42,959 nt of DNA from an uncultured bacterium. GTDB lineage: Bacteria; Patescibacteriota; Minisyncoccia; Phycocordibacterales; UBA9973. The notes under the pieces were generated by a model, which saw only the letters and a program-made list of their open reading frames with translations, made no database searches and was not told where the DNA came from. Location of the stretch: contig CAISUD010000035.1 of assembly GCA_903888625.1 (NCBI GenBank), positions 1 through 42,959 on the forward strand, read 5' to 3'. A program made the translations under genes and the position numbers. Positions 9,596 through 42,957 of this stretch are shown piece after piece (the stretch's first letter is position 1; every line of letters begins with the position of its first letter).

Positions 9596-11557
9596 TTAAT
9601 TACGGATAGCAATACCTTTTGGTGTATTAAACTGCCCGTTACCATTACCACTAGTTCCCCATCCGTTTACATATGTACCACTTGAAGTAAATTCTTGGAC
9701 ACTACTAAAATCACTGGCTGTAATATAAACATTTCCATTCGAACCTATGGCAATACTATTACCACCGTAATAAGTGCCACTGTTAACAAATTGCCATCCA
9801 AGAATAAAATTTCCGCTTGAATCAAATTCTTTAGCTTCAAAATTATCCAACACATAAACATTTCCATTTGGAGCAATAGCGATACCATGAGGATTACAGA
9901 AATGCCCACTGCAAGATCCCGGACCTGTCCATTGAGTAACATAAGTTCCATTGGAGGTAAATTCAAGTATACGACTGTAATAATCTGTCACATAAACATT
10001 TCCATTTGAAGCAATGGCAATATCCCAAGGATACATAATATTGCTGTCAGGTGAAGACCATTGGGTGATATAAGTACCGGAAGATGTAAATTCCTGTATA
10101 CGATGGGTTTCAACATCACCCACATAAACATTTCCATTTGGAGCAATGGCAATACCACTATGACCATTTTGGTTATTAAATTGTCCATTGCCTGTACCAT
10201 AACTTCCCCATTGAGTTACATATGTTCCGTTTGGAGTGAATTCTTGGATTTTATTAGTATGATCAGACACATAAATATTACCACTTGGAGCAATAGCAAC
10301 ACTGTCAGTTCCCAAAAACATTCCATTGTTTCCCCATTGACTAACATAGTTCATATTTGAATCAAATTTCTGGACACGATAATTCCCCCAATCCGCTACA
10401 TAAATATTTCCACTTGCCACCGGTCCATTTATTGTAAACAAATTATCAGAAAAATCTTGAATACTAGGATTTACTAATCTTACAACCTCAACTTTAAAGT
10501 GCTGTCCAGAAATTGCATTTGGATTGAAAGTTTGTATAAGTGAAATAGTTGGTAATGTAACAATTTCAATACCATCGTTTACTGATACACTTGAACCAAA
10601 AGAAATAGCTCCAATAGGTAAATCATTTATATCATAATATTGTAACTGCATTCCAATTTGTTCTGTCGTCGGTATATTACAAGTCTTCCACTTTATTGTA
10701 ATTTGCTGACCATCTTGATACACTTCTCCCCCATTAGGAGATAATACTTGAATCCAAGATGGCATACCTGGTAAACAAGCTCTAATTGGAACTATAACTG
10801 GGCTAGTTGCTCTTGCACCTGAAGAAGGAGTTACTGCAGAAACTTTTGGAGAAACAACGGTTGAAGGATTGATAATATTAGAAGGATTTATAGAAAAGAA
10901 ATTATCAGAAGAATCAGTAGAATCGGGATTAGCAGAAATACCAGGTGTATGTGGTGGTACTAATTGAATTAGTATTTTATAAAAAGTACCATACTGAAAG
11001 GCACCTGGATAAAATTGAGAGGCTACGGGTAAAGTAAAAGTTGTTGAATTCCCAGCCCGATAATAATTACCTAAATCTTTTCCTGCAAATTTAAAAGATG
11101 CTGTCCATTGACTATTTACAGAACTTGCTTGATCAAGATAAACAACTAATTCATCATTTGCTGGTATCATTTTACAGCCATCTGTCCATGTAACGGTAAT
11201 TGTCTGACCTGGGGTATATACTTCTCCTCCATTTGGTGAAATAACGTGAACATCAGTACCAACACAAGGTATTGTAGCAGTACTTTTTACAGGGTTAGAA
11301 TTTGTAACGATAGCTGGAGTTGTAACCTTTGGTGCAGTTACAGTCGGTGGAACTACAACCTTTGCTGGTGTTGCTGTTGCTTTAACTGCCGACACTGCTT
11401 TTAAAGCAAGTCCTGATATTTCTACTTGAAGATCTGAAACTTGTTTTTGCAATGACTTAATTTGAGCCATTACGTCATCGTAAGTAGAGGCTTTAGCATG
11501 CGAAACTCCGACGAACAAAACTGCAACGAGAACGAAAATACTTATATATTTTTTCAT
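9596..11557 (-). CDS. Secreted surface protein with two Kre9/KNH-like domains and a C-terminal NHL-repeat beta-propeller
   Basis: Signal peptide; two ISPNGGEVY...GQ.ITV.W modules; repeated GNVYV.D....IQEFTSNGTYVTQWG units. Confidence 0.85.
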   Translation of the reverse strand: MKKYISIFVLVAVLFVGVSHAKASTYDDVMAQIKSLQKQVSDLQVEISGLALKAVSAVKATATPAKVVVPPTVTAPKVTTPAIVTNSNPVKSTATIPCVGTDVHVISPNGGEVYTPGQTITVTWTDGCKMIPANDELVVYLDQASSVNSQWTASFKFAGKDLGNYYRAGNSTTFTLPVASQFYPGAFQYGTFYKILIQLVPPHTPGISANPDSTDSSDNFFSINPSNIINPSTVVSPKVSAVTPSSGARATSPVIVPIRACLPGMPSWIQVLSPNGGEVYQDGQQITIKWKTCNIPTTEQIGMQLQYYDINDLPIGAISFGSSVSVNDGIEIVTLPTISLIQTFNPNAISGQHFKVEVVRLVNPSIQDFSDNLFTINGPVASGNIYVADWGNYRVQKFDSNMNYVSQWGNNGMFLGTDSVAIAPSGNIYVSDHTNKIQEFTPNGTYVTQWGSYGTGNGQFNNQNGHSGIAIAPNGNVYVGDVETHRIQEFTSSGTYITQWSSPDSNIMYPWDIAIASNGNVYVTDYYSRILEFTSNGTYVTQWTGPGSCSGHFCNPHGIAIAPNGNVYVLDNFEAKEFDSSGNFILGWQFVNSGTYYGGNSIAIGSNGNVYITASDFSSVQEFTSSGTYVNGWGTSGNGNGQFNTPKGIAIRN

Positions 11558-11734: not shown

Positions 11735-11759
11735 AAAGTAGTTGATTTAACAATTATAA

Positions 11760-11885
11760 AAATGATTGGGGAAACTGGTTTAATTCCAGTACAGTGCCGC
11801 TACGGTAAGCTCCGATTCGCCAATTTGGTGGATGGAGACAAGTCCGAATGCCAATAATTCAAAATATTTGTCCCGAGCAGGATTT
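11760..11885 (+). ncRNA. Cobalamin (B12) riboswitch-type leader
   Basis: GGGGAAACTGGTTTAATTCCAGTACAGTGCCGCTACGGTAAGCTCC...GGAGACAAGTCCGAATGCC fits the conserved GGGAA / GGU..AA.UCC / CCGC.AC.GUAA / AAGUCCGAAUGCC blocks. Confidence 0.85.
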
Positions 11886-18018: not shown

Positions 18019-19380
18019 TTATTTTCCTGCAATTTTATTTGCAAATCCTATATAGGTAAGTGGCGTAAACTTTTTTAGTTCTAATTTTATTTTAGGAGTA
18101 ACTTTTAGGGTGTCAATAAATTTTGCAAAATCTTCCATCTGAATTATTTTCCCACGAGTCAATTCTTTCAAAGCTTCATACGGAATCGGATAATTTTCTC
18201 GGCGCAGAACAGTTTGGATAGCTTCAGCAATAACTTCAGGATGAGCAAGTAAATCTTCTTTTATTTTATTTTCATTCACTGAAATTTTACTTAAACCCCT
18301 TAAGAGTGAAATATAAGCCAGATATGAATGCCCAAAAGCCGTACCAAAAGAACGCTCGACTGTCGAATCAGACAAATCACGTTGCAAGCGCGAGATAGGT
18401 AATTTGCGAGCAAAAAATTCAAACAAAGCATTGGCTATCCCTAGGTTACCTTCACTATTTTCAAAATCAATCGGATTTATCTTATGAGGCATTGTCGATG
18501 AACCCACCTCCCCGGCTTTTGGTTTTTGATTGACCCAATTGTCCGAAATGTATCTCCAGATGTCTTGATTAAAATCTAAAAGAATCGTGTTTGTTCTTCT
18601 TATCGTATCAAAAATAGCCACATAGCTATCATGACATTCTATTTGAGTGGTAATTAAATTTGCTTCTAATTTTGAAACTCTACCTTGATTAAATCCATTA
18701 ATAAAATCTTTTGTAAATTTCATCCAGTCAACTTTCGGATAAGCAGCTAAATGCGCATTCCAATTTCCACTAGCACCATTTAATTTCGCTTGAATTTTTA
18801 TACTTTGTAATCCCAGCATTCTTTTTTCCAATCGAGCAGTAAAAACTTTCATTTCTTTGCCAAAAGTTGTAGGTGAAGCTGGTTGGCCATGAGTGCGAGC
18901 CAGCATTGGTAAATTTTTATATTTTTTAGCGAGATTATTTAGTTCAGAAATTATTTTATTAATTTCTGGAATCATAATTTCTTCTACAGAATCCGAAAGG
19001 ATCAAAGCATAAGAGATGTTGTTTGTATCTTCAGAGGTCAAAGCAAAATGCACCCATTCAATAGAATCCTTAAGAGTCGTTTTTTTTAATTTCTCTTTAA
19101 TAAAATACTCAACCGCTTTGACATCATGGTTGGTGACACTCTCAAAATCTTTTATCTTTTGATATGAAACATCATCAAACTTTTCATATAAATTCTCTAA
19201 AATTTTTATTTCTTTTTGAGAAAATTTTCGTAAAGCGATCTTCCCGAAACTAGATAAGGCAATTAAATATTTTACTTCCATCAATACTCGATATTTCATC
19301 AAAGCCTGTTCCGAAAAATATGGTGCCAACACCTTTGTCTTTTCATAATATCTTCCATCTAACGGGTTTATGGGTTGCAT
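18019..19380 (-). CDS. purB: Adenylosuccinate lyase
   Basis: LNPLDGRY-like N-terminus; GSSTMPHKINPIDFENSEGN signature. Confidence 0.96.
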   Translation of the reverse strand: MQPINPLDGRYYEKTKVLAPYFSEQALMKYRVLMEVKYLIALSSFGKIALRKFSQKEIKILENLYEKFDDVSYQKIKDFESVTNHDVKAVEYFIKEKLKKTTLKDSIEWVHFALTSEDTNNISYALILSDSVEEIMIPEINKIISELNNLAKKYKNLPMLARTHGQPASPTTFGKEMKVFTARLEKRMLGLQSIKIQAKLNGASGNWNAHLAAYPKVDWMKFTKDFINGFNQGRVSKLEANLITTQIECHDSYVAIFDTIRRTNTILLDFNQDIWRYISDNWVNQKPKAGEVGSSTMPHKINPIDFENSEGNLGIANALFEFFARKLPISRLQRDLSDSTVERSFGTAFGHSYLAYISLLRGLSKISVNENKIKEDLLAHPEVIAEAIQTVLRRENYPIPYEALKELTRGKIIQMEDFAKFIDTLKVTPKIKLELKKFTPLTYIGFANKIAGK

Positions 19381-20339
19381 TATATTTTACTTAAATTATT
19401 TGTAATTCTTTCCATGATTGGAGTATTAAAATCATGTTCGAAACTTTTGCCAGTAATCGTTTCATAAATTTCAATATAACGACGAGAAAGTTCGGCTACA
19501 AGTTCAATCGGTGCCTCTGGTAATTTTTCATCTTTATATGGATCACAGTTTTCTTTAAACCAAATTCGTAAAAATTCTTTATCAAAATATTCTGGCTCTT
19601 CACCTTTGTCGAGTCTCGCCTGATAACTATCAGCTTTCCAATAACGAGAAGAATCTGGAGTATGAATTTCATCAATCAACATCAATTTACCATTTTCATC
19701 CAAACCAAATTCATATTTTGTATCAACCAGGATAAGACCTTTTGAAAGTGCAATTTCTTGCCCGCGAAGAAAAATTGCTTTGGCAGTCTTCTCGACTTCA
19801 TCAACTAATTCTTTTGACATCAATCCTTCGGCCACAATCTCTTGTGGAGACAAAGTCCTGTCATGTTCTTCAAATTTTGTCGAAGGAGTAAAAACAGGCT
19901 CAGGTAATTTTTGATTTTTCTTCATGCCTTCCGGTAAAACAAAATTTCCAAAATCTCGTTTTCCATCTTGATAATGAGTCCAAAGTGAAGTTGAAGTTAC
20001 CCCAGTGATATATCCACGGACGATAGCTTCGATAGGCAAAGGAGTACATTTTCTAGCTACTAAAACATTTGGGTCAGGGATAGATAAAACATGATTTTGG
20101 ATTATATCTTTCGTCTGTTCAAAATAAAAAGCACTAATTTGATTTAACACTTCCCCTTTAAAAGGAATATGAGCAATAATCCGATCAAAAGAAGAATGCC
20201 GATCTGTTGAAACGAGCACTATTTTATCGGGCATTGTATATACATCCCGAACTTTCCCGACTTTCCTTTCCCCCAAGTTTTTAAAATCCGTTTCTTTTAA
20301 TACATCATTTATGTGTTCTTTGATTGTTTCTATATTCAT
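19380..20339 (-). CDS. purC: Phosphoribosylaminoimidazole-succinocarboxamide synthase
   Basis: GKVRDVY, LVSTDRHSSFDRI, LILVDTKYEFG, IDEIHTPDSSRYW. Confidence 0.96.
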   Translation of the reverse strand: MNIETIKEHINDVLKETDFKNLGERKVGKVRDVYTMPDKIVLVSTDRHSSFDRIIAHIPFKGEVLNQISAFYFEQTKDIIQNHVLSIPDPNVLVARKCTPLPIEAIVRGYITGVTSTSLWTHYQDGKRDFGNFVLPEGMKKNQKLPEPVFTPSTKFEEHDRTLSPQEIVAEGLMSKELVDEVEKTAKAIFLRGQEIALSKGLILVDTKYEFGLDENGKLMLIDEIHTPDSSRYWKADSYQARLDKGEEPEYFDKEFLRIWFKENCDPYKDEKLPEAPIELVAELSRRYIEIYETITGKSFEHDFNTPIMERITNNLSKI

Positions 20340-21376
20340 AGAAATATTACTTTTTTATTACCATTAATAATTTTACCAATTTCGTATATTTTAAACTCTG
20401 GATATTTTTTAAGAATTTCTAGTATCTTTTTCGATTCTTCTTTTGGAATAATTAAAACAAGACCAATCCCCATATTAAAAGTACGATACATATCAAGTTC
20501 TGGAATTTCCCCAATTTTTTGCAGATAATTAAAAATTGGGAGTACAGGCCAAGTCCCTTTTTGAATTTCAATATCTAAATTAGAAGGTAGTACTCTTGGA
20601 ATATTTTCGATGAAGCCTCCACCTGTGATATGGGCAATCCCATTTATTTCTACTCCAGTGTCTAGCATTTCAAGTACTGGTTTTGCATAATTTATATGAA
20701 CAGCAAGCAATGCTTCTCCGATAGTCATTCCAAGTTCATCCAATTTTGCATTAACTTCATTTTTCCCAATTTCAAAAAATATTTTTCGAGCCAAAGAATA
20801 TCCATTGGTATGAAGTCCGCTTGAAGCAAAACCAAGAGCAATATCTCCTTCTTTTATTTTTTCTCCAGTTATAATTTTATCTTTTTCAACTACTCCAGTA
20901 ATACATCCTGCAATATCATGTTCACCATCTCTGTAAATGCCAGGCATTTCAGCCGTCTCACCACCCAAAAGTGAAACTCCATTTTCGCGACATGCTTTAG
21001 ACATCCCACCTACCATCGCTTCCATCACGCTCGGATCTAATTTATCATGAGCGACATAATCTAAAAATGTGAGAGACCTCGCTCCCATTGCAAGTAAATC
21101 ATCACAACAATGATTCACAATATCTTCTCCGACAGAATCATATTTATTCATCATTCGAGCAACAGAAAGTTTCGTACCAACTCCATCGATACTCTGCACG
21201 AGCACTGGGTTTTTGTAAGTTTTTAAAACTTCGCCAATATCATACAGCCCGCCAAAACTACCGATACCTGTCAGCACTACTTTGGTATGGGTACTAGCTA
21301 CATCTGCTTTGATCCGGCGAACAACCTCATTCCCGGCATCAATATTCACTCCTGCTTGTGTATATAAATCACTCAT
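20336..21376 (-). CDS. purM: Phosphoribosylformylglycinamidine cyclo-ligase
   Basis: MSDLYTQAGVNIDAGNEVV, SIDGVGTKL, GGETAEMPG, HITGGGFIENIPRVLP; the ORF extends to 21403. Confidence 0.95.
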   Translation of the reverse strand: MSDLYTQAGVNIDAGNEVVRRIKADVASTHTKVVLTGIGSFGGLYDIGEVLKTYKNPVLVQSIDGVGTKLSVARMMNKYDSVGEDIVNHCCDDLLAMGARSLTFLDYVAHDKLDPSVMEAMVGGMSKACRENGVSLLGGETAEMPGIYRDGEHDIAGCITGVVEKDKIITGEKIKEGDIALGFASSGLHTNGYSLARKIFFEIGKNEVNAKLDELGMTIGEALLAVHINYAKPVLEMLDTGVEINGIAHITGGGFIENIPRVLPSNLDIEIQKGTWPVLPIFNYLQKIGEIPELDMYRTFNMGIGLVLIIPKEESKKILEILKKYPEFKIYEIGKIINGNKKVIFL

Positions 21377-21377
21377 T

Positions 21378-21797
21378 TTAATTAAAAATATTATTAATAA
21401 CATCTACTAATTCTTCTTTATTTTTATATGGAAATATTTTTATATCTGGATTTCCTGCAAGCATAGCTGACATTTTTTTGTCGTCCACTTTATGATAGAT
21501 ACAGACAACCTTTTTATTCAAATTTTGAGCATAAGCAATTTCATAACCAACACCAAAAGATGGTACAGTAATATCAGCTATCAAAATATCAACTTTTTCC
21601 TTGATATTTTTTATATCTCGAGAATAATATTCTTCATCAGTATAGCTATTTTTACCATAACCATATTTAGCGATTGATTCATTTTTAACAAAATCACTAA
21701 GGACTTCACCGTGTTTTTGAAGTTCTTGAATGATAAAATCATACCATTCATGATGACTACTTCCTCCTCGTATTGATCCTGAAAAATATATGTTCAT
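21378..21797 (-). CDS. Nucleoside 2-deoxyribosyltransferase / DNPH1 (Rcl)-like deoxynucleotide N-hydrolase
   Basis: MNIYFSGSIRGG, DILIADITVPSFGVGYEIAYA. Confidence 0.75.
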   Translation of the reverse strand: MNIYFSGSIRGGSSHHEWYDFIIQELQKHGEVLSDFVKNESIAKYGYGKNSYTDEEYYSRDIKNIKEKVDILIADITVPSFGVGYEIAYAQNLNKKVVCIYHKVDDKKMSAMLAGNPDIKIFPYKNKEELVDVINNIFN

Positions 21798-21798
21798 T

Positions 21799-22170
21799 TT
21801 AATTAAAATAGTTAGTTTCTGGATTACGGTCTATCAATTCATGAGCTTTTTTCATTTCTTCGGGAGTATTAATATAAATAATTTTGAATTTTCCAGAAGT
21901 AATTTTATTCTGGTAATCATAATTAACTTCTAGAATATGACACAATCCCCAATAAATCCATTTACCATTTTTATTTTCAACTAGAAAATTTCTGACTGGC
22001 GGGACTTGGTATAATCTAATTCCATCTTTATCCTTAAACTCATAAACTTTCTCAATAAAATCTTCAGCTTTAAATGCATTTTTAAAATGCTCCTCCAAAA
22101 CAAGTTCTTTCGGAAAACCTTGCTCAAAAGTTATTTGCAGTGTATCGTTTATTTTTATTAATGTTCCCAT
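21799..22170 (-). CDS. Hypothetical protein in the purine operon
   Basis: 123-aa ORF packed between DNPH1-like and Fic genes with 1-4-bp gaps. Confidence 0.65.
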   Translation of the reverse strand: MGTLIKINDTLQITFEQGFPKELVLEEHFKNAFKAEDFIEKVYEFKDKDGIRLYQVPPVRNFLVENKNGKWIYWGLCHILEVNYDYQNKITSGKFKIIYINTPEEMKKAHELIDRNPETNYFN

Positions 22171-22174
22171 AATT

Positions 22175-23521
22175 TTATTTTTCCAAATTATTTTTCATCG
22201 ACTCATATATTTTATTAAAATCATCCTTTTTTAAATCATCTAAAGAATCTAATTTTTTTATAACTTCAACTAGCTCTTTCATTTTTTTGCTATTTTCCTC
22301 AGAATTTAAAAAATTAAAAACATCATCAATAAAAACATCTAATTTATTTTTTATCTCCTCCCTATCTTGCTTAATAGACAAAAAATCAGTTTCTTCTATT
22401 AACTTTTCTCCGATATCAACTAATTTTTTATCCTGTAAAAATCTCGTAAGAAGCTCATTAACATCTAATGCAATTGAACCTAAACTAGATTTTTCATATT
22501 TAGTATCAGAAACTTCTTTTTTATTAATAGTCCCTGACTCATACCTAGCAATTGGAATATGAATATTTTGAATATCTATATTAGATTTTTTTTCACTAAA
22601 GCGTCTTTGTAAAAAGACAAATAATGCTCTTCCAACTCTCCCATTTTTATCAAGAAATGGATGAATTAATTCAAAAAGCATATAATATTTCAATGATTCT
22701 TCTTGAATTTCTTGATTATTTGAAATTGTTTTTTGGTTTTCAATTTTTTTACCAAACTTGGACATCAAATCTGGCACAAAATAAGCATCAACTGGTGCAT
22801 TAAAATTTTTATTATTTTTTATTCTGTCATTTCTATATCCAATTTTATCATTTTTATCAGATACAATAGACTGAGTATTTGTAATAAATTTTTCAATTTC
22901 AATATTTACAGGAGCTGATTGAGCATATCGATAAGCGACAAGTTCAGTTATTTTTCTATTTCTATACTCAAAAGCATCTTCGATATCATAGGCAAGTGTT
23001 GTTAAATCAGAAGAATCTATCTCTAACTCTGGTTTCAAAAGTTCATATAAATTATTTTTTTTATATTTATTTAAAAGGTCCTTTATTTTGGGAGATAATT
23101 CAATCTCGTGTAAAATATCAATCGGTTCTTTTAAAACCTCAAACTTTTTTAGATGCTTGAGCATAACAAATTTCCATTTTTCTAAGTCAGAATTTTTCAA
23201 AGTTTGTAATAAATTTATATTTACTACTCCATAAGATTTACCATCTTCATAATTTAAATAACTTTCACGTGCAGTATTTCGTATCTTATCTTTTATAATA
23301 TCTATTACTTTATAATCTTTTTTTCTTTCTGTCTGTACATTATTAATATTTTGCAAACTTTCTAATTCGCTAACTAAATCATGCATAGAAGTTTTTAATT
23401 CCTTTTTTTCAGAAAATCCTAATTCATTTATCATTCTATCTTTTAGATCTAAAAAAAAATCAATAGATTTCCTATCAATATTGTTAGATTTTTCTGTAAA
23501 ATTTTGTCGGAGATTTTCCAT
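22175..23521 (-). CDS. Fic-domain protein
   Basis: ELIHPFLDKNGRVGRALFVFLQ matches the Fic HPFx(D/E)xNGRxxR motif. Confidence 0.85.
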   Translation of the reverse strand: MENLRQNFTEKSNNIDRKSIDFFLDLKDRMINELGFSEKKELKTSMHDLVSELESLQNINNVQTERKKDYKVIDIIKDKIRNTARESYLNYEDGKSYGVVNINLLQTLKNSDLEKWKFVMLKHLKKFEVLKEPIDILHEIELSPKIKDLLNKYKKNNLYELLKPELEIDSSDLTTLAYDIEDAFEYRNRKITELVAYRYAQSAPVNIEIEKFITNTQSIVSDKNDKIGYRNDRIKNNKNFNAPVDAYFVPDLMSKFGKKIENQKTISNNQEIQEESLKYYMLFELIHPFLDKNGRVGRALFVFLQRRFSEKKSNIDIQNIHIPIARYESGTINKKEVSDTKYEKSSLGSIALDVNELLTRFLQDKKLVDIGEKLIEETDFLSIKQDREEIKNKLDVFIDDVFNFLNSEENSKKMKELVEVIKKLDSLDDLKKDDFNKIYESMKNNLEK

Positions 23522-23522
23522 T

Positions 23523-24041
23523 TTATTTTTCTAAATATTTCTTAAATCCAATTTTTAAAAGTTTCTCGCCTTTCTTTTTCACTTCTTCCGCCATTTTTTG
23601 TTTGTAAGTAATTAATTTTTTCTCTAAATTTTTATCACTAATGGATAAAATTTCAATCGCGAGTAGCCCGGCATTTTTTGCCCCATTGATACCAACTGTT
23701 GCCACTGGAATTCCGGGTGGCATTTGCACCATAGATAATAGTGAATCCAGCCCATCTAAAGTTTTAGCTTTTATTGGCACACCAATTACAGGCAAAGTGG
23801 TAAAAGAAGCCAAAACCCCTGCCAAATGAGCTGCTCCGCCTGCGGCTGCAATTATTACCTTCAAACCTCTAGGTGATGCATTTTGTGCGTATTTATGGGC
23901 TAAAATAGGACTTCTGTGGGCAGAAATGACGGTCATTTCGTAATCAATTCCAAACTCTTCTAAAATTACTGCCGACTCTTTCATTACTTCTAAATCAGAA
24001 TCAGAACCCATAATTATCCCAACTTTTATACTTGTTTTCAT
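23523..24041 (-). CDS. purE: N5-carboxyaminoimidazole ribonucleotide mutase
   Basis: [35 protein letters not shown]. Confidence 0.95.
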
Positions 24042-24045
24042 TTTT

Positions 24046-25419
24046 TTATTTTAACATTTCTAATGCCTTTTTTCCAATATCAGTACGATAATACATTCCA
24101 TCAAATTTTATTTTTTCAATTGCTTTGTATGCTTTCTGTAATGTTTCCGCTAAGGTATCTCCTGTGGCACTTACTCCCAAAACTCTCCCACCATTTGTAA
24201 CTAAATTATTTTTCTCATCTATTTTTGTGCCAGCCTGAAAAATTACCACATCTTCCTCCCGTACTAAGGGGAGGATTAAGGAGGGGTCTATCGTAATTAT
24301 TTTTCCTTTTTCATATTGTTCTGGATAGCCACCGGAAGCAAGCACAATATTGCAAGCAAAACATTTTTTCCATTTTATTTCTATACCAGAAAGTTTTTTA
24401 TCTACCATCGCATTAAAAATATCTAGCAAATCAGTTTCAAGTAACCTCATGTACACTTCGGTTTCTGGATCACCAAAACGAGCATTATATTCTAAAATTT
24501 TCGGCCCGGTCTTAGTTAAAATAAGTCCTGGATAAAGCACACCTTCATACGGTAATCCTTCTGTCTTCATTGCTTCTAAAGTCGGAGCAATAATTTCTTT
24601 TTCAATTTGCTGTATTAATTCTTTTGTCACAAATGACAAAGGACCAATAACCCCCATCCCGCCAGTATTTAAGCCAACATCATTCTCACCAATTTTTTTA
24701 TGATCTTGTGAGGTTGGAAATATTTGGTAAGAAATCCCATCAGAAAAAACATGGGTAGAAATTTCAGGACCAGACAGAAATTCTTCAATCACTACTTCCC
24801 GACCCGCCTCGCCAAAAACTTTTTTTACTAAAATATTTTCTAAGGCCTCTATCGCTTCATCCATCGTTCTCGCAATTATTACGCCTTTCCCAAGAGCTAG
24901 GCCACTGGCTTTTATGACAATCGGCAAACTTTGCCCTTCCACATATTTTTTTGCTTCATTAAATTCAGTAAAAACTTCGAATCCTGCTGTGGGCAAATTA
25001 TATTTCTGCATAAATTTCTTTGAATAAGCTTTTGAAGACTCAAGCCGAGCAGCATTTTTGGTCGGACCCCAGATTCGTAAATTTTGTTTTCTAAATTCAT
25101 CCACAATGCCAAGAGCCAGTGGATCATCAGGGGTTGCTAAGGTTAAATCTATCCCGTTAGAAGCCGCCCTCGCAAAACGAGTGCTACTGTCACCTTGGGG
25201 CGACTTGCTTCTAACGGGATCAATTTTCCCCGTTTTTGCAAATTCGACCAAAGCAGGAATATCTGTTGCTTTAATATCTAGATTGGTACCTAAACTAGCC
25301 GTGCCACCATTGCCCGGTGCAAAAAACAACTCGCCACATTTTGGTGATTGTTTTAACTTCCAGCCAATAGCATGCTCCCTCGCCCCACTACCTATAATTA
25401 AAATGTTTTCCTTTTGCAT
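24046..25419 (-). CDS. purD: Phosphoribosylamine-glycine ligase with an in-frame repeat insertion
   Basis: [39 protein letters not shown]; carries the insert [24 protein letters not shown]. Confidence 0.95.
24255..24288. repeat. CCTCCC/GGGGAGG-type palindromic repeat inside purD (3' part)
   Basis: CCTCCCGTACTAAGGGGAGGATTAAGGAGGGGT, a G/C-run-rich palindrome in an AT-rich gene. Confidence 0.6.
25151..25220. repeat. 70-bp palindromic element inserted in frame in purD
   Basis: 14-bp perfect terminal inverted repeats ATCCCGTTAGAAGC...GCTTCTAACGGGAT. Confidence 0.85.
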
Positions 25420-25423
25420 AAAA

Positions 25424-26020
25424 TTATTTCTTTATTTTTTGTAAAACTTCTACATAAAGCTCATTTTCTTTTTTCTTTAATCTTTCATATAAAGATGAAA
25501 CAGTGTCATCTTTTTTTACTTCTTCAAAAACTCTGCCGAGGACCGGTCCAAAATCAAATTCTAAAGTCAAAAAGTGAATCGATGACCCAGCAAAAGTACA
25601 TTTTTTATCCAAAAAATTACCAATGGCTTTATCGGTCAGCATCCTTTTATTCCACAGAGCTTCAGTACCATCTGGATTTAAAACTTTTCCATCAATTCCA
25701 TCTGGAATAAGCCCAGGGTGTAAATTTAAAATTTTATTAGGGTATGCGAGTATAACTTCATCTAAAATAATTTGCTTCCAACCAGCCAAACATACATAGT
25801 CGGGATTTAATTTTAAAAGCAAAGGCAATAATTCTTCTTTTTTTGGACAAATTTCAATTCTTAAATTATTACTCCTTGCTCTTTCTAGTCCCAAACTTTC
25901 AACTTTATCAGAAACAACAGCGCAAATTTCAGCATCGAGTTTCCCCTCTTTTATCGCATCAATAATAGCTTGTAGATTTGTGCCTGTACCAGTATTTGAA
26001 ATAAGAATCGCGAGTTTCAT
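25424..26020 (-). CDS. purN: Phosphoribosylglycinamide formyltransferase-like
   Basis: ILISNTGTGTNLQAIIDAI, LNLHPGLIP, FAGSSIHFLTLEFDFGPVL. Confidence 0.85.
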   Translation of the reverse strand: MKLAILISNTGTGTNLQAIIDAIKEGKLDAEICAVVSDKVESLGLERARSNNLRIEICPKKEELLPLLLKLNPDYVCLAGWKQIILDEVILAYPNKILNLHPGLIPDGIDGKVLNPDGTEALWNKRMLTDKAIGNFLDKKCTFAGSSIHFLTLEFDFGPVLGRVFEEVKKDDTVSSLYERLKKKENELYVEVLQKIKK

Positions 26021-26023
26021 ATT

Positions 26024-27436
26024 TTAATCCTTAAACTTTAAACTGTCATACTTTATTTCTTTTTCGTGTTCATATATTGGAAGCGGGTATTCACCATTAA
26101 AAGCCGACAGGCACAATTTTCCTTTTGGTAAACCAACGGCTTTGACCATCCCATTGATCGACAAAAATGAAAGCGAAGTTGCTCCAAGATGTTTACAAGT
26201 TTCTGTGATTGTTTTTTGAGAGGAAATTAAATTTGTTTGCTTAGGAGTATCTATACCATAAAAATCTGGAAATTTAACCGGAGCAGAAGCTACTAAAAAA
26301 TGAACTTCTTTGGCTCCAGCATCAAAAAACATTTTTACAATTTGCTTTGAAGTATTTCCCCGAACGATTGAATCATCTACTATTCCAACCCTCTTGCCAG
26401 TAATAATACTCCGCAAGACTGTCAATTTCATTTTTATTTTTTGCTCTCGATTGGCTTGCGTTGGTTCAATAAAAGTCCTATGAATGTAGCGATTTTTATT
26501 AAGGGCCATTTCAAATGGTACCCCCGCTGCTTGTGAATAGCCAATAGCCGCAGGGATTGCGGTCTCTGGCACTGGCACCACCACATCTAATTTTAATTTT
26601 GAATTCTCTTCAAACAAAATTTTGCCAAAATTTTTACGTGTTTGATAAACAGATTTTCCTTGAATTAAACAATCGTGCCGAGAAAAATAAACAAATTCAA
26701 AAATATCAAATTTCGGATCAAGCTTGGTCATAATTTTACTCTTCATGCCTTTTTTGGAAATAGTCACAATTTCTCCAGCCGACACTTCTCGCAAAAATTG
26801 GGCACCGACAGTACGTAAGGCACAAGTTTCAGAAGCGACAATTATTTCTTTACCATTCGTACCGATCACCAGTGGTCGAATCCCACGTGGATCACGAAAA
26901 GCCACTAACTCTGTATTAGACAATGCCACGCAAGAAAAGGCTCCGGTGAAAAGTGGGTATGCTTTCTCTACGGCTTTCGATAATGAATCACCTTTCTTCA
27001 TATAAAAAGCCAGAGCTTTAGCCATTAATTCAGAATCTGATTCATCTGTAAATTTTATTTTATTTTTTTTCAAAAATTCTTCAAGAGCTTTAGTACTAGG
27101 CAAATTGCCATTATGAGCAAAAGCTACAGTATTATTAAAAATAATTGGTTGAGCATGTTTCCCATCTGTACCCCGAGAAGTTGAATACCGGTTGTGACCA
27201 ATTGCCGAAGATCCTTTTAAACCTTCAATAATTTTTTCAGTATAAACTTGGCTAACTAAACCAGAACTTTTGAAGTGGTAAATTTTCTTGCCATCAGATG
27301 AAACTATACCTGTTTGTTCTTGCCCACGGTGTTGTAAAGCAAACAAACCAAAGTAAGCTTGCCTGGAAGCAACTCCGGGTGCATTAAAAATACCAAACAC
27401 TGCACATTTTTCATTGATTTTATTTTCTTTATTCAT
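26024..27436 (-). CDS. purF: Amidophosphoribosyltransferase
   Basis: CAVFGIFN...LFALQHRGQEQTGI, GHNRYST, GIVDDSIVRGNT. Confidence 0.96.
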   Translation of the reverse strand: MNKENKINEKCAVFGIFNAPGVASRQAYFGLFALQHRGQEQTGIVSSDGKKIYHFKSSGLVSQVYTEKIIEGLKGSSAIGHNRYSTSRGTDGKHAQPIIFNNTVAFAHNGNLPSTKALEEFLKKNKIKFTDESDSELMAKALAFYMKKGDSLSKAVEKAYPLFTGAFSCVALSNTELVAFRDPRGIRPLVIGTNGKEIIVASETCALRTVGAQFLREVSAGEIVTISKKGMKSKIMTKLDPKFDIFEFVYFSRHDCLIQGKSVYQTRKNFGKILFEENSKLKLDVVVPVPETAIPAAIGYSQAAGVPFEMALNKNRYIHRTFIEPTQANREQKIKMKLTVLRSIITGKRVGIVDDSIVRGNTSKQIVKMFFDAGAKEVHFLVASAPVKFPDFYGIDTPKQTNLISSQKTITETCKHLGATSLSFLSINGMVKAVGLPKGKLCLSAFNGEYPLPIYEHEKEIKYDSLKFKD

Positions 27437-28296
27437 TATTTTCTAAAATAATTTATTGCATTTTTAAATAAGATAAGCCCTTCACCTTCATCTTTTCTTG
27501 CCCTCTGCTTACTTGCAGTGAGCTTGTCGAACCTGTCGAATGGGTCTTTTTTCTTCAACTGCCAAAGCGGTGAATGATGGAAAAATTGAGCTCTCTCTGG
27601 ATGAGGCATCATTCCTAAAACTCTACCATTATAACCCAAAATTCCAGCAATGTCGTAATTGGCTCCATTCGGATTAGCTTCTAAATTTTGGAATTTACAG
27701 ATATCTCCTTTTGTGTAAGTAAAAGCAATTTCTTTTTTCTTCAACATTTCTTTATATTTTTTTGAATCTATTAAATATCTTCCTTCACCATGAGCAATAG
27801 GTAAAGATATTTTCTTTATTCCAACAAGCCACGGACTGAAACCCCTCCCAACCCTCCCCTTCGCAGGGGAAGACGGGATTGCTAAATCTACCCAACGATC
27901 AATATACTGTGCATTTTTATTATGAGTAAGTGCACCAGGTAAAATTCCTAAATTTGTCATAATCTGAAAACCATTACAAATACCAATCGCGAGAGTGTCT
28001 CGAGATAAAAATTCATTAATTTCTTTACCTAAATGATTTTTTAATTTATTAGCATAAGCTTTACCACTGCCAGTATCATCGCCATAAGAAAATCCTCCTG
28101 GAAAAGCTAAGATCTGAAATTCTCCCAACATTTTTGGTTTAGCAATCAAGTCATTGATATGCACAATCTCCCCTATGCCACCTGCCCTCTCAAAAGCGAA
28201 TTTTGTTTCCTCTTCACAATTTAAACCATAGCCTGACAAAATCATAACTTTTGGTTTATTTATTTTTATTTTTTTTGGTGTTTTTTTGCTTGACAT
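27436..28296 (-). CDS. purQ: Phosphoribosylformylglycinamidine synthase, glutaminase subunit, with repeat-derived inserts
   Basis: FPGGFSYGDDTGSGKAYA, GICNGFQIM, PIAHGEGRY, GMMPHPERA. Confidence 0.93.
   Translation of the reverse strand: MSSKKTPKKIKINKPKVMILSGYGLNCEEETKFAFERAGGIGEIVHINDLIAKPKMLGEFQILAFPGGFSYGDDTGSGKAYANKLKNHLGKEINEFLSRDTLAIGICNGFQIMTNLGILPGALTHNKNAQYIDRWVDLAIPSSPAKGRVGRGFSPWLVGIKKISLPIAHGEGRYLIDSKKYKEMLKKKEIAFTYTKGDICKFQNLEANPNGANYDIAGILGYNGRVLGMMPHPERAQFFHHSPLWQLKKKDPFDRFDKLTASKQRARKDEGEGLILFKNAINYFRK
27478..27550. repeat. Repeat-like insertion in the purQ 3' end
   Basis: Minus strand ATTCGACAGGTTCGACAAGCTCACTGCAAGTAAGCAGAGGGC encodes DPFDRFDKLTASKQRARK between conserved PurQ blocks. 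Confidence 0.5.
27838..27880. repeat. Palindromic G/C-run repeat inside purQ
   Basis: ACCCCTCCCAACCCTCCCCTTCGCAGGGGAAG encodes the extra IPSSPAKGRVGRG. Confidence 0.6.
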
Positions 28297-28336
28297 ATGT
28301 TTATATTTTGCTATACTCTTTATATAAATGTCTCCT

Positions 28337-28645
28337 TTATTGGAGATTCCGAGAAACCCCCGTAAGGGGGTTTCGTTGTTTAAGGAAATAAGCCCTTTGT
28401 TTCATTAATAATTTCATGAAATTCACTCTTTGAAATAGCCCCATTCTTGGAGCTAAATATTTAAGAAATTTCATCTCAGATTTTAATCTTTCTTGATATT
28501 TTTCTTTTTTAGGAAATCGAAAAATATATTTATTATCTAAAACAATTACATCATGATCCCAACCTTTTTCAATTAGTTTTGAATTTTTAAATTTAATTTC
28601 AGGAAAATATCTTTTAATTTTTTTTAAATAATCTAATTTATTCAT
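28337..28645 (-). pseudogene. Truncated/frameshifted aminoglycoside phosphotransferase (APH)-like kinase remnant
   Basis: LIEKGWDHDVIVLDNKYIFRFPKKEKYQERLKSEMKFLKYLAPRM is an APH-type N-terminus; the homology breaks and a short alternate-frame tail (NGAISKSEFHEIINETKGLFP*) follows. Confidence 0.55.
28353..28374. other. Perfect hairpin upstream of purQ
   Basis: GAAACCCCC-GTAA-GGGGGTTTC. Confidence 0.7.
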
Positions 28646-28646
28646 A

Positions 28647-31600
28647 TTATTTCATCTTATTTGAAAAACTGTGATACGCGACTGAAAGTTTTTTAACTGT
28701 CGTATCAACTACTTTTTTATTTTTTGCATCAGTTATTGTAAATTTTCCATCTTTGGTGACAACACCTAATTTATTACAAACTATTTCTTTGGCTAATTTT
28801 TCAAACTTTTTTACATTTTCTTTCGCTACTGTCACCACAATTCTACCCTGGCTTTCTGAAAAAAGAATCGTTTCTGTCGACTGAGAGGCAAAGCCTCTCA
28901 GTGAGAGGTTACAACCGAGCATTCCACCCACTGAAGCTTTTGAGAGAGCAATTGCTAGTCCACCAGAACCAACAGAAATCGCACTTGAAATTAATTCATT
29001 AGAAATTGCTTGCTCTACTATTCCGTAAGTTTTCAAATTCTTTTCTAAATTTACTTTTGGCACACTACTATTATTCCCCTCTTGAGGAGTACCCTTTAGG
29101 GGGAGGTGGATATCGCCAATAATTTTTGAAAATTCACTACCACCAAATTCATCCAATGTCTCACCCAACAAATAAATAATGTCTCCAAAATTTTTAAATT
29201 CTGGAGAAACTGTTTTATAAATATCTGGCACTACGCCAATCGCCGAGATAAGCAATGTTGGCGGAATGGATATTGCCACAGGGTTCCCTTTTGCATCATA
29301 GCCTTTAAAATCATTAAACATACTGTCCTTCCCAGAAATAAATGGCGTACCAAAACCAACTGAATAATCGTAACAAGCTTGAAGTGATTTTATCAATTGT
29401 GCTAATCTTTCTTTTTCATAAGATGAACACCAACAAAAATTATCTAAAATTGCTAAATGGGAAAGTTTTGCTCCAGCACAAATTGCATTTCGAATTGCTG
29501 TATCGATTGCGCAACCAGCCATATCATAAGGACTTAATTCGGAATAAGAAGGATAAAGGGCAAAAGAAAGCGCCACTCCTTTTTTTGAAGAAAGCACTGG
29601 ACGGAAAACTTGCGCATCGGTATTGATACGTCCCCTACCAGAAATTGGTTTCAAAACAGAACCAGCTTGCACCTCATAATCGTATTGATTTGAAATAAAA
29701 GAAAAGCCACTCAAATTTTTATCAGCCAACATTTTTTCTAAAGTTTTTGTAAAATTAATCTCACCCTTCGCCTTGCTCTTATTAAGGGGAGGGTTGGTAA
29801 GAATTTCCAGAGTAGAACTTTTTAAATGTTTTTGTGGTAATCCATCATGCAAAAAATCCATCGAAATATTCATAATTTCTTTTCCATTAAAATCTACGAT
29901 GCACTTTCCCGAGTCAGTAAATTCTCCGACAATAGTGGCTTCTACTCCCCGACTCTCCATTAATTTCTTAAAAACTTCCCATTTTTTCTTTGGAATAGCC
30001 AAGGTCATTCTCTCCTGAGACTCAGAAATCCAAATTTGCCAAGGTGAAAGTCCTGGATATTTCAAAGGAACTTTTTCGAGCATTACTTTTGCTCCACCAC
30101 ATTCTTTGGCCATCTCAGCAATAGAACAAGAAATTCCTCCAGCCCCATTGTCGGTGAGACTATTATATAAATCCATTTTGCGAGCTTCTTTCACAATTGC
30201 ATCACTTAATTTTTTCTGAGTAATTGGATCACCGATTTGCACTGCCGTAGCTGGACTCGTAGAATCCATCACCACAGAAGAAAAAGTGGCTCCGTGAATT
30301 CCATCCGCTCCGACTCTGCCTCCAACTACTACAATATAGTCTCCCAACTGTGCTTGTTTTTCATGAGAAAGTTTACCATTTATTTTTTTGGGAATTATCC
30401 CAACAGTACCGACAAAAACTAAGGGTTTTCCCCTGAAACGATCATCATATTTCACAAAACCTGAAACAGTCGGAATTCCAGAACAATTGCCACCAACATT
30501 TACACCCTTTATCACTCCTGCCATAATTCGTTTTGGTGAAAGCATTTTATGAGTTAAGTTTTTATCTTTATATAAAGCACGGTTATCTTCAGGGTTCCCA
30601 AAACAAAAACCATAGAGATTGGCAACGGGTTTCGCTCCAAGGCCAAAACCAATCGTATCGCGATTCACTCCGACAATCCCAGTAATTGCACCGCCGAATG
30701 GATCGAGGGCGGAAGGACTGTTGTGAGTTTCAACTTTATGAGTGACTAAATAATCATCATCAAAAATAATTCCTCCAGAATTATCAGAAAAAACTGAAAC
30801 GCAAAAATCACTATTCCCTTTTTGAGCCCGGATTTTATTTGTGGCACCTTTGATATATGTTTTATATAAACCATCTTTTATGTCGTCAATCGGGCCAGCG
30901 AAAATTGTATGCTTGCAATGTTCAGACCAAGTCTGGGCCAAGGCTTCAAGCTCGATATCACGAGGGTCTCTACCTAATTTATTAAAATAAGCTTGAATAG
31001 CTTTCATTGATTCTAAATCGAGTGCTAATGGTCCCCGACAAATACCGTCTTCACCCAAAATTCCATCTTTCCCTATCTTAGTAAGCTCACTATCGGGCAC
31101 AGAAAGAGAAACACAAATAACTGGTTTTTTATCTAGTAAAACAACTTTTGGAATTTGTAGTGGTAAATTATTTTGACTTTTTATTTCCTTCAGAGAAAAA
31201 ATATTCGCTCTTTCAATGAGTGGGTTATATAATGTCCCAGCAATTTTTTTAACATCATCTAATTTAACTGTTCCGGAAATTAAAAAAACTTTTGAAGTAT
31301 AAACTTCAAATTTATTTTCTTCATTCAAATGAAGTAAATCAGAAATAGTCTCATGTGCGGTGTGAGCGATATTGTCTGTCACTCCCGGCAAAAAACCAAT
31401 TTCAATAATATAAGAAAATTTTAATCCATCGGGTAATTTATCAATTGAAAATTTCTCTAAAATTGGATTTGTTAATGCTTCGGCTGTTTTAATCAACTCC
31501 GGTTGAGAAAATGACGAGTCAAAAAGATAAGAATCTACTAAAAAAACTTTGGAAACCTTGCCTTTTAAACCGAGAGTGTTCCAGGATTTTAAAAATAGCC

Positions 31601-31649
31601 GATTTCGGCTATCTTCTCCTTTTTGTGTCACATATAAACGTGAAATCAT
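28647..31649 (-). CDS. purL: Phosphoribosylformylglycinamidine synthase (PurL) with N-terminal PurS-like region; PurQ is separate
   Basis: EALAQTWSEHCKHTIFAG, KVETHNSPSALDPFGGA, SLTDNGAGGISCSIAEMA, FISGKDSMFND, LFSESQGR; 1000 aa with an extra N-terminal ~200 aa. Confidence 0.94.
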   Translation of the reverse strand: MISRLYVTQKGEDSRNRLFLKSWNTLGLKGKVSKVFLVDSYLFDSSFSQPELIKTAEALTNPILEKFSIDKLPDGLKFSYIIEIGFLPGVTDNIAHTAHETISDLLHLNEENKFEVYTSKVFLISGTVKLDDVKKIAGTLYNPLIERANIFSLKEIKSQNNLPLQIPKVVLLDKKPVICVSLSVPDSELTKIGKDGILGEDGICRGPLALDLESMKAIQAYFNKLGRDPRDIELEALAQTWSEHCKHTIFAGPIDDIKDGLYKTYIKGATNKIRAQKGNSDFCVSVFSDNSGGIIFDDDYLVTHKVETHNSPSALDPFGGAITGIVGVNRDTIGFGLGAKPVANLYGFCFGNPEDNRALYKDKNLTHKMLSPKRIMAGVIKGVNVGGNCSGIPTVSGFVKYDDRFRGKPLVFVGTVGIIPKKINGKLSHEKQAQLGDYIVVVGGRVGADGIHGATFSSVVMDSTSPATAVQIGDPITQKKLSDAIVKEARKMDLYNSLTDNGAGGISCSIAEMAKECGGAKVMLEKVPLKYPGLSPWQIWISESQERMTLAIPKKKWEVFKKLMESRGVEATIVGEFTDSGKCIVDFNGKEIMNISMDFLHDGLPQKHLKSSTLEILTNPPLNKSKAKGEINFTKTLEKMLADKNLSGFSFISNQYDYEVQAGSVLKPISGRGRINTDAQVFRPVLSSKKGVALSFALYPSYSELSPYDMAGCAIDTAIRNAICAGAKLSHLAILDNFCWCSSYEKERLAQLIKSLQACYDYSVGFGTPFISGKDSMFNDFKGYDAKGNPVAISIPPTLLISAIGVVPDIYKTVSPEFKNFGDIIYLLGETLDEFGGSEFSKIIGDIHLPLKGTPQEGNNSSVPKVNLEKNLKTYGIVEQAISNELISSAISVGSGGLAIALSKASVGGMLGCNLSLRGFASQSTETILFSESQGRIVVTVAKENVKKFEKLAKEIVCNKLGVVTKDGKFTITDAKNKKVVDTTVKKLSVAYHSFSNKMK
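28880..28902. repeat. Intragenic perfect palindrome in purL
   Basis: ACTGAGAGGC-AAA-GCCTCTCAGT. Confidence 0.7.
29074..29110. repeat. Palindromic G/C-run repeat inside purL
   Basis: TTCCCCTCTTGAGGAGTACCCTTTAGGGGGAGGTGG encodes HLPLKGTPQEGN. Confidence 0.55.
29762..29799. repeat. Partial palindromic G/C-run repeat inside purL
   Basis: CACCCTTCGCCTTGCTCTTATTAAGGGGAGGGTTGG encodes NPPLNKSKAKGE. Confidence 0.5.
31595..31612 (-). other. Terminator-like hairpin in the first codons of purL
   Basis: Minus strand ATAGCCGA-AA-TCGGCTAT followed by TTTT. Confidence 0.5.
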
Positions 31650-42084: not shown

Positions 42085-42957
42085 CTATTGGACACTAGCA
42101 CAAGTAACAGTAAGAACAAGATTTGAAATTGATTGATCTGGGTCCCATACTCCTACTTCATATATACCAGAATTAATAGTATTAACAAACATAAATGTAT
42201 TATGAGTCATACCAGAGCCAGGAAGTGCATACCCACCACCCAATAAGACTTTCCCAGTTGGACAAGTTAATTGTGCCTGTAGAATGCGATTATCTGACGA
42301 AATATCATTAGTTCTATCAAAAATTTGAGACCATACTTCATAATTAACTAAATGACCGAGTGCAGAATAAATTTGAAAAGGATTATTCGTAGTTTTAATA
42401 GCAAGACTAGAAGAAGGATTTAAACTAACTTTTGATGACGTAGCATTTGTTATTGGAGTGACAATTTTTGGAGCAACAGTTGCAATGACAGCACTTTTTG
42501 CTGGAGCATTTATGGTAAATAATTTATCTGAAAAATCAATAGGTGCAGTTAAACCAGAATAATTTGTTTGCCAAACAGAAATTTTAAACTTATTTCCAAA
42601 AAACATTTGACTCCAGGAACTAGAAGTTGGAAGAGTTACAGCCTCTGTTCCATCATTAGCTGTTTGAGTAAGGGAAAGAGAAAAATTTTCTGGCTCAGCT
42701 GATGAATATTCCGTTAAATCAATCCTTATTGGGGAATTAGCTGGAATATTACAACTCGTCCAAGTTACTGTAATTTGTTGCCCTGCTGTAAAAATTTCTC
42801 CCCCATTTGGTGAAATAACTGTAATAAAAGGAGCTGTAGTTGGTAAACAAACTCTACTAGCTGTTCCTGTTACTGGAGTAATTGCTGCTGCATTTACTAT
42901 TGGCACACCTAAAACCAAAACACTTAAAACGACTAGAAAACCTATGTATTTTTTCAT
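42085..42957 (-). CDS. Secreted surface protein with a Kre9/KNH-like domain
   Basis: Signal peptide; ITVISPNGGEIFTAGQQITVTWTSCNIP matches modules in the 9596-11557 protein. Confidence 0.8.
   Translation of the reverse strand: MKKYIGFLVVLSVLVLGVPIVNAAAITPVTGTASRVCLPTTAPFITVISPNGGEIFTAGQQITVTWTSCNIPANSPIRIDLTEYSSAEPENFSLSLTQTANDGTEAVTLPTSSSWSQMFFGNKFKISVWQTNYSGLTAPIDFSDKLFTINAPAKSAVIATVAPKIVTPITNATSSKVSLNPSSSLAIKTTNNPFQIYSALGHLVNYEVWSQIFDRTNDISSDNRILQAQLTCPTGKVLLGGGYALPGSGMTHNTFMFVNTINSGIYEVGVWDPDQSISNLVLTVTCASVQ

Follow-up and report, generated by a model that had tools for sequence, protein, structure and literature searches.

A 68-bp in-frame palindrome in purD of an uncultured patescibacterium: probable membership of a mobile element family with start-codon and GIY-YIG-encoding relatives

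The window, by which we mean the whole 42 959-nt stretch of DNA analysed, carries a near-complete de novo purine operon (purB, purM, purE, purD, purN, purF and purL; positions 18019–31649) that is notable for a genome of 0.9 Mb. Within its purD gene lies an insert whose parts are collected in Table 1. The palindromic element proper, its ends taken as TCCCG...CGGGA, measures 68 bp; perfect 14-bp arms enclose a spacer of 42 bp, and arms and spacer are translated in frame as 24 codons of PurD. On the gene strand the element is flanked by TTGA and TAGA, a 4-bp target duplication with a single, synonymous mismatch (ATT/ATA, both Ile codons), and element plus duplication make up 72 nt, i.e. 24 codons. 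The initial annotation, made from the sequence alone, had described the same inverted repeats and a 24-codon in-frame peptide, both of which we confirmed, the latter by translation and ortholog alignment; its suggestion that ATTGAT/ATAGAT might be a target duplication holds for a duplication of 4 bp, albeit an imperfect one. The element strand is predicted to fold at −46.5 kcal/mol, compared with −24 ± 3 kcal/mol for shuffled sequences (z −7.4). The arm has no further occurrence in the window at zero or one mismatch. Rfam contains no family matching the insert, intron families included, and neither a group I nor a group II intron core was found in it.

Table 1. Features of the purD insert and its host gene, in window coordinates
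Feature	Position	Strand	Evidence
68-bp palindromic element, coding-compatible class A	25152..25219	-	arms, genome copies, fold, duplication, class alignment
Left 14-nt arm ATCCCGTTAGAAGC, one base longer than the terminal inverted repeat	25151..25164	.	repeat search
Right 14-nt arm GCTTCTAACGGGAT	25207..25220	.	repeat search
Target duplication copy TCTA (gene strand TAGA), one mismatch to partner	25148..25151	.	
Target duplication copy TCAA (gene strand TTGA)	25220..25223	.	
Inner hairpin 1, GTCGCC-CCAA-GGTGAC, class A core with the strongest conservation	25189..25204	-	fold, class alignment, covariation
Inner hairpin 2, variable loop of class A, length differences mostly 3	25166..25184	-	fold, class alignment, covariation
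Host gene purD (phosphoribosylamine-glycine ligase), reading frame uninterrupted by the insert, 24 inserted codons	24046..25419	-	

All three GARS domains of PurD were found by Pfam, the N domain being stretched so that residues 5–127 fall on 100 model positions. PurD was found in 40 of the 60 genus genomes searched, and in most the match is broken at residues 67 and 89; the 24 inserted residues are missing from every one of the 25 aligned genus orthologs. PDB sequences likewise run through the site uninterrupted, the insert falling between the segments that match PurD residues 4–66 and 86–456. The earlier expectation that PurD normally has no interruption here is thus borne out, and the outcome that would have contradicted mobility, an insert conserved throughout the lineage, did not occur (0/25). 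A single-sequence fold model of PurD reached a pLDDT of only 34, too poor for any claim about loop exposure. The ortholog of one genome (G013, locus L233) has a different insert of 12 residues, PARNASRSDAGG, at the same place, encoded by a second palindrome, CCCGCAATGCTTCGCGTAGCGATGC (peptide ARNASRSDAG), of which dispersed copies occur in 23 of 80 genus genomes; additions are therefore tolerated at this point of the protein.

The source genome contains two further copies of the element at 88–89% identity (C20:9340–9419 and C3:12440–12505), together with many copies of the terminal repeats alone, so that the result which would have counted against a mobile element, the lack of copies elsewhere, was not obtained. 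More copies occur in the genus, the class and the phylum, and we refer to these coding-compatible elements, 62–74 bp long with a few larger, as class A. The genomes compared are mutually related metagenome assemblies, and element sampling began from perfect outer ends. Seventeen class A copies can be aligned on a common shape of an outer stem and two hairpins, and the stem covaries, with both-sided compensatory changes in 11 of 27 pairs. By covariance model, class A is present in 39/80 genus genomes (the weaker matches there including start-codon elements), in 107/384 Paceibacteria genomes (E ≤ 0.001) and, at a stricter cut, in 19/380 genomes of the phylum; the class A core was absent from the viral contigs searched. 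In-frame copies lie inside RsmH, LeuS, MurB, MurC, CysS and G6PD, and another extends a Xer-type recombinase at its N terminus (names from sequence reading and Pfam family). The apparent leuS gene holds two copies in tandem, both in frame (L265, G030:C3:43404–43552). The initial proposal that a comparable in-frame element exists in this lineage is supported by these dispersed copies and by those in other conserved enzymes. That the insert is instead an old, lineage-specific and immobile loop of PurD, palindromic by chance, is scarcely credible: PurD loops do tolerate insertions, as the G013 ortholog illustrates, but that insert is itself a dispersed palindrome, and such a reading is already contradicted by near-identical copies at other genomic sites and in unrelated proteins, by the target duplications and by the lack of the insert in 25 orthologs.

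The lengths of class A elements point in the same direction. Length plus 4 is divisible by three in 14 of 16 copies, and the same holds for 16 of 21 genus copies (P = 7 × 10⁻⁵) and 39 of 55 strong copies from other genera (P = 1.4 × 10⁻⁸), the copies not being fully independent. This bears on whether the element might be lost from the transcript or passed over in it, as a mobile intron or a translational bypass element, so that the protein never contains the peptide. The strong RNA fold and conserved three-way shape would suit such a process, as would the short ORF-less and GIY-YIG-encoding insertions described in CPR rRNA genes (PMC11270868); however, removal would need no constraint to multiples of three and no open inserts, and no intron family is matched, so we consider it very improbable.

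Class A does not stand alone, since elements that share its terminal repeats, TCCCGTTAGARRY, but differ in their interiors, which are of several types, are found almost only at start codons. Elements with the outer nine bases of each end were detected in 30/60 and 22/60 genus genomes (two length ranges), against none in a reversed control; about half of the genus has elements sharing the ends of the purD element. In 140 of 153 non-class-A elements, the gene-proximal end coincides exactly with the A of the ATG starting an ORF of 50 or more codons; position alone gives a chance expectation of about 0.7%. This bias may reflect both a choice of target and the purging of insertions made elsewhere. 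Perfect 4-bp duplications flank 100 of the 153 and duplications of 3 or 5 bp another 18, the commonest targets being TGAA and TGGA. Ten of the downstream proteins were read by eye, and DnaA, AtpA, AlaS and AspS are among those that start at the ATG of an element. Minimal members, 50-bp elements with the same ends around a short GC-rich hairpin core, lie at G000:C13:12958–13007, G000:C34:17363–17412 and G006:C13:752–801. A likeness of GTTAG/CTAAC to integron attC sites was considered and dropped, because duplications on both sides do not fit it.

Such precise placement raises the question of whether the start-codon elements are domesticated regulatory leaders under positive selection, with class A as by-products. 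Besides the 140/153 elements exactly at an ATG, a leader of this kind would agree with the single orientation of class B (41/41, the two opposite matches being class A) and with the presence, in 62 of 144 start-codon elements, of a leader ORF that is coupled to the start of the gene, compared with 33 ± 4 in shuffled sequences. Many elements nevertheless have no leader ORF at all, and duplications together with presence in few genomes fit recurrent insertion followed by purifying selection; we therefore regard domestication as unlikely. We also abandoned the idea that every start-codon element relies on a leader-ORF relay, as the ORF occurs in only 62/144.

Longer members of the family may indicate how it moves. 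Three elements of 278–280 bp with the same ends encode a GIY-YIG domain protein of 83–84 residues, relatives of which are found in 50 of 60 genus genomes, and the GIY-YIG-encoding members as a whole span 278–286 bp, with the stop codon in or at the right repeat. All nine of the closest GIY-YIG genes lie inside elements with perfect terminal repeats of 13–17 bp, eight of these elements sit directly on an ATG-opened ORF (scripted call), and among the nine the stop TAA falls inside the right repeat, a few bases ahead of the ATG. Such terminal repeats were found at 20 of 30 GIY-YIG loci versus 28 of 240 swapped flanks, some swapped pairs sharing a repeat family; the more distant loci have other repeats (ACCCTGTTAAAT, TCCCGTACGAAAT). 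At least three short elements were present in 12 of the 14 genomes with a close GIY-YIG gene and in 9 of the 46 others (P = 1.3 × 10⁻⁵, a significance overstated because the genomes are related). The first ~20–28 nt and the last 18 nt of the long class C elements are common to the GIY-YIG elements, and the former look as internal deletions of the latter would. The purD copy itself encodes no GIY-YIG catalytic domain, which among its relatives is confined to the 278–286-bp members, so it is not in itself a GIY-YIG homing element. Elsewhere, at G060:C4:224–457, a GIY-YIG match falls within an open frame of 598 residues and is possibly an in-frame GIY-YIG insertion.

We propose that the purD insert is a non-autonomous, MITE-like mobile palindrome of the coding-compatible class of a Patescibacteria mobile family that is possibly GIY-YIG-driven, a reading to which we assign a probability of roughly 80%. 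Mobility of the family is strongly supported by in-frame insertion, empty sites, dispersed copies, duplications (4 bp and perfect in most relatives of the purD element), the length constraint and the covarying stem. The element would have entered purD at a site of the TNNA type, duplicating 4 bp and so lengthening the gene by 72 nt. As 68 + 4 is a multiple of three and the arms can be read through in the open frame on either strand (PVR...SNG), the host frame is not interrupted. PurD would thereby acquire 24 extra residues in its N domain, between a helix and a strand, and the enzyme presumably still works. Class A would share its ends with the larger set of short start-codon elements, and the best candidate for an autonomous member would be the 278–286-bp element coding solely for a GIY-YIG endonuclease, whose staggered cut might open the target, the elements then being copied by a presumed route. 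The association described above suggests that the GIY-YIG protein is the mobiliser; against this, we know of no GIY-YIG enzyme that integrates DNA on its own. The single mismatch in the purD duplication also weighs against the overall reading.

A trans-acting DDE or Y1 enzyme may be the mover instead. The elements would then be mobilized by a Y1/HUH transposase of the RAYT type or by an unseen DDE transposase, the GIY-YIG gene being a passenger, which we hold to be possible, if somewhat doubtful. DDE enzymes are classically recognized by terminal repeats with 4-bp duplications, each of the six element-rich genomes searched has Y1_Tnp genes, and nine genomes have at least three elements without a close GIY-YIG gene, one of the nine having no GIY-YIG gene at all. 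On the other hand, none of ten Y1 loci examined is flanked by a TCCCGTTAG pair, so that the Y1 transposase was set aside as a partner despite its presence, and Y1 transposition is not, to our knowledge, associated with target duplications. No transposase with the shared ends was found, a longer transposase-bearing element being absent among the ends listed for genomes G000 and G006, and the closest GIY-YIG genes take up exactly the length of their elements. With the GIY-YIG protein as the driving enzyme, the family could amount to a new class of mobile DNA, for which we see about even odds: palindromic-ended elements of ~280 bp with one GIY-YIG gene, inserting at start codons with a 3–5-bp duplication, rebuilding the ATG from their own last base, with a stop codon coupled to that ATG, and with a nuclease that mobilizes their very short derivatives too, including a class adapted to inserting in frame into essential enzymes.

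In-frame selfish palindromes have so far reportedly been a peculiarity of Rickettsia and Wolbachia; they now appear throughout a phylum of highly reduced genomes and in essential enzymes. The length signature of class A shows selection for frame, and the start-codon sister group with its rebuilt ATG illustrates how mobile DNA survives where nearly every base codes. Were the GIY-YIG protein indeed the mobiliser, few autonomous mobile elements would be smaller than these, and GIY-YIG nucleases would have a further, new means of moving DNA. Odd peptides that recur in proteins of Patescibacteria (PVR...SNG, ARNASRSDAG) may likewise be accounted for by the element family. A literature search, conducted mostly outside subscription journals and preprints, returned no description of terminal-repeat GIY-YIG elements, start-codon MITEs or CPR palindromic elements.

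The elements nevertheless resemble several known systems in part. Rickettsia palindromic elements (RPEs), known from Rickettsia, are ~150 bp long (Ogata 2000, 2002; reviewed in PMC10969869), and, like them, class A elements are dispersed palindromic repeats lying in frame within unrelated protein genes, adding a peptide and leaving the gene open. By analogy the purD element would work as RPEs do: it has several copies, including ones in unrelated protein genes, and keeps the reading frame, whereas at 68 bp it and its class are well short of the RPE size. The 4-bp duplication, frame-locked length, start-codon sister group, GIY-YIG relatives and different phylum also set it apart, and the two are likened by description only. 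The RPE-like idea of the initial annotation stands for an in-frame mobile palindrome and proves too narrow for what is a larger family with start-codon and GIY-YIG members. Like MITEs, the elements are short, have terminal inverted repeats and short target duplications (one mismatch in purD), are present in many copies and lack a transposase of their own; unlike MITEs, their candidate autonomous partner with shared ends encodes a GIY-YIG endonuclease and no transposase, and the non-coding classes insert almost only at start codons. Short palindromes and Y1 transposase genes in the same genomes recall REP/RAYT systems, with their GTAG- and CGTC-tagged palindromes (PMC3733652), yet the present elements have duplications and long paired ends and lie in or at genes rather than flanking Y1 genes. 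A further parallel is offered by CPR rRNA genes, which carry GIY-YIG-coding insertions that are not introns of group I or group II, plus short ORF-less ones (PMC11270868). Both sets are found in the same bacterial group and combine GIY-YIG proteins with short partners lacking an ORF, and they may be one family, although the rRNA insertions were described without terminal repeats or insertions in protein genes.

Elsewhere the window begins with the 5′ part of a 16S rRNA gene, cut off by the contig edge (1–432), and contains an AdoCbl-II riboswitch match at 11752–11859 that barely exceeds the Rfam cut-off (37.1 versus 36.5 bits). Two repeat-rich proteins, encoded at 9596–11557 and 42085–42957, have common repeats of 62–114 nt, and part of the former matches an NHL-type family.
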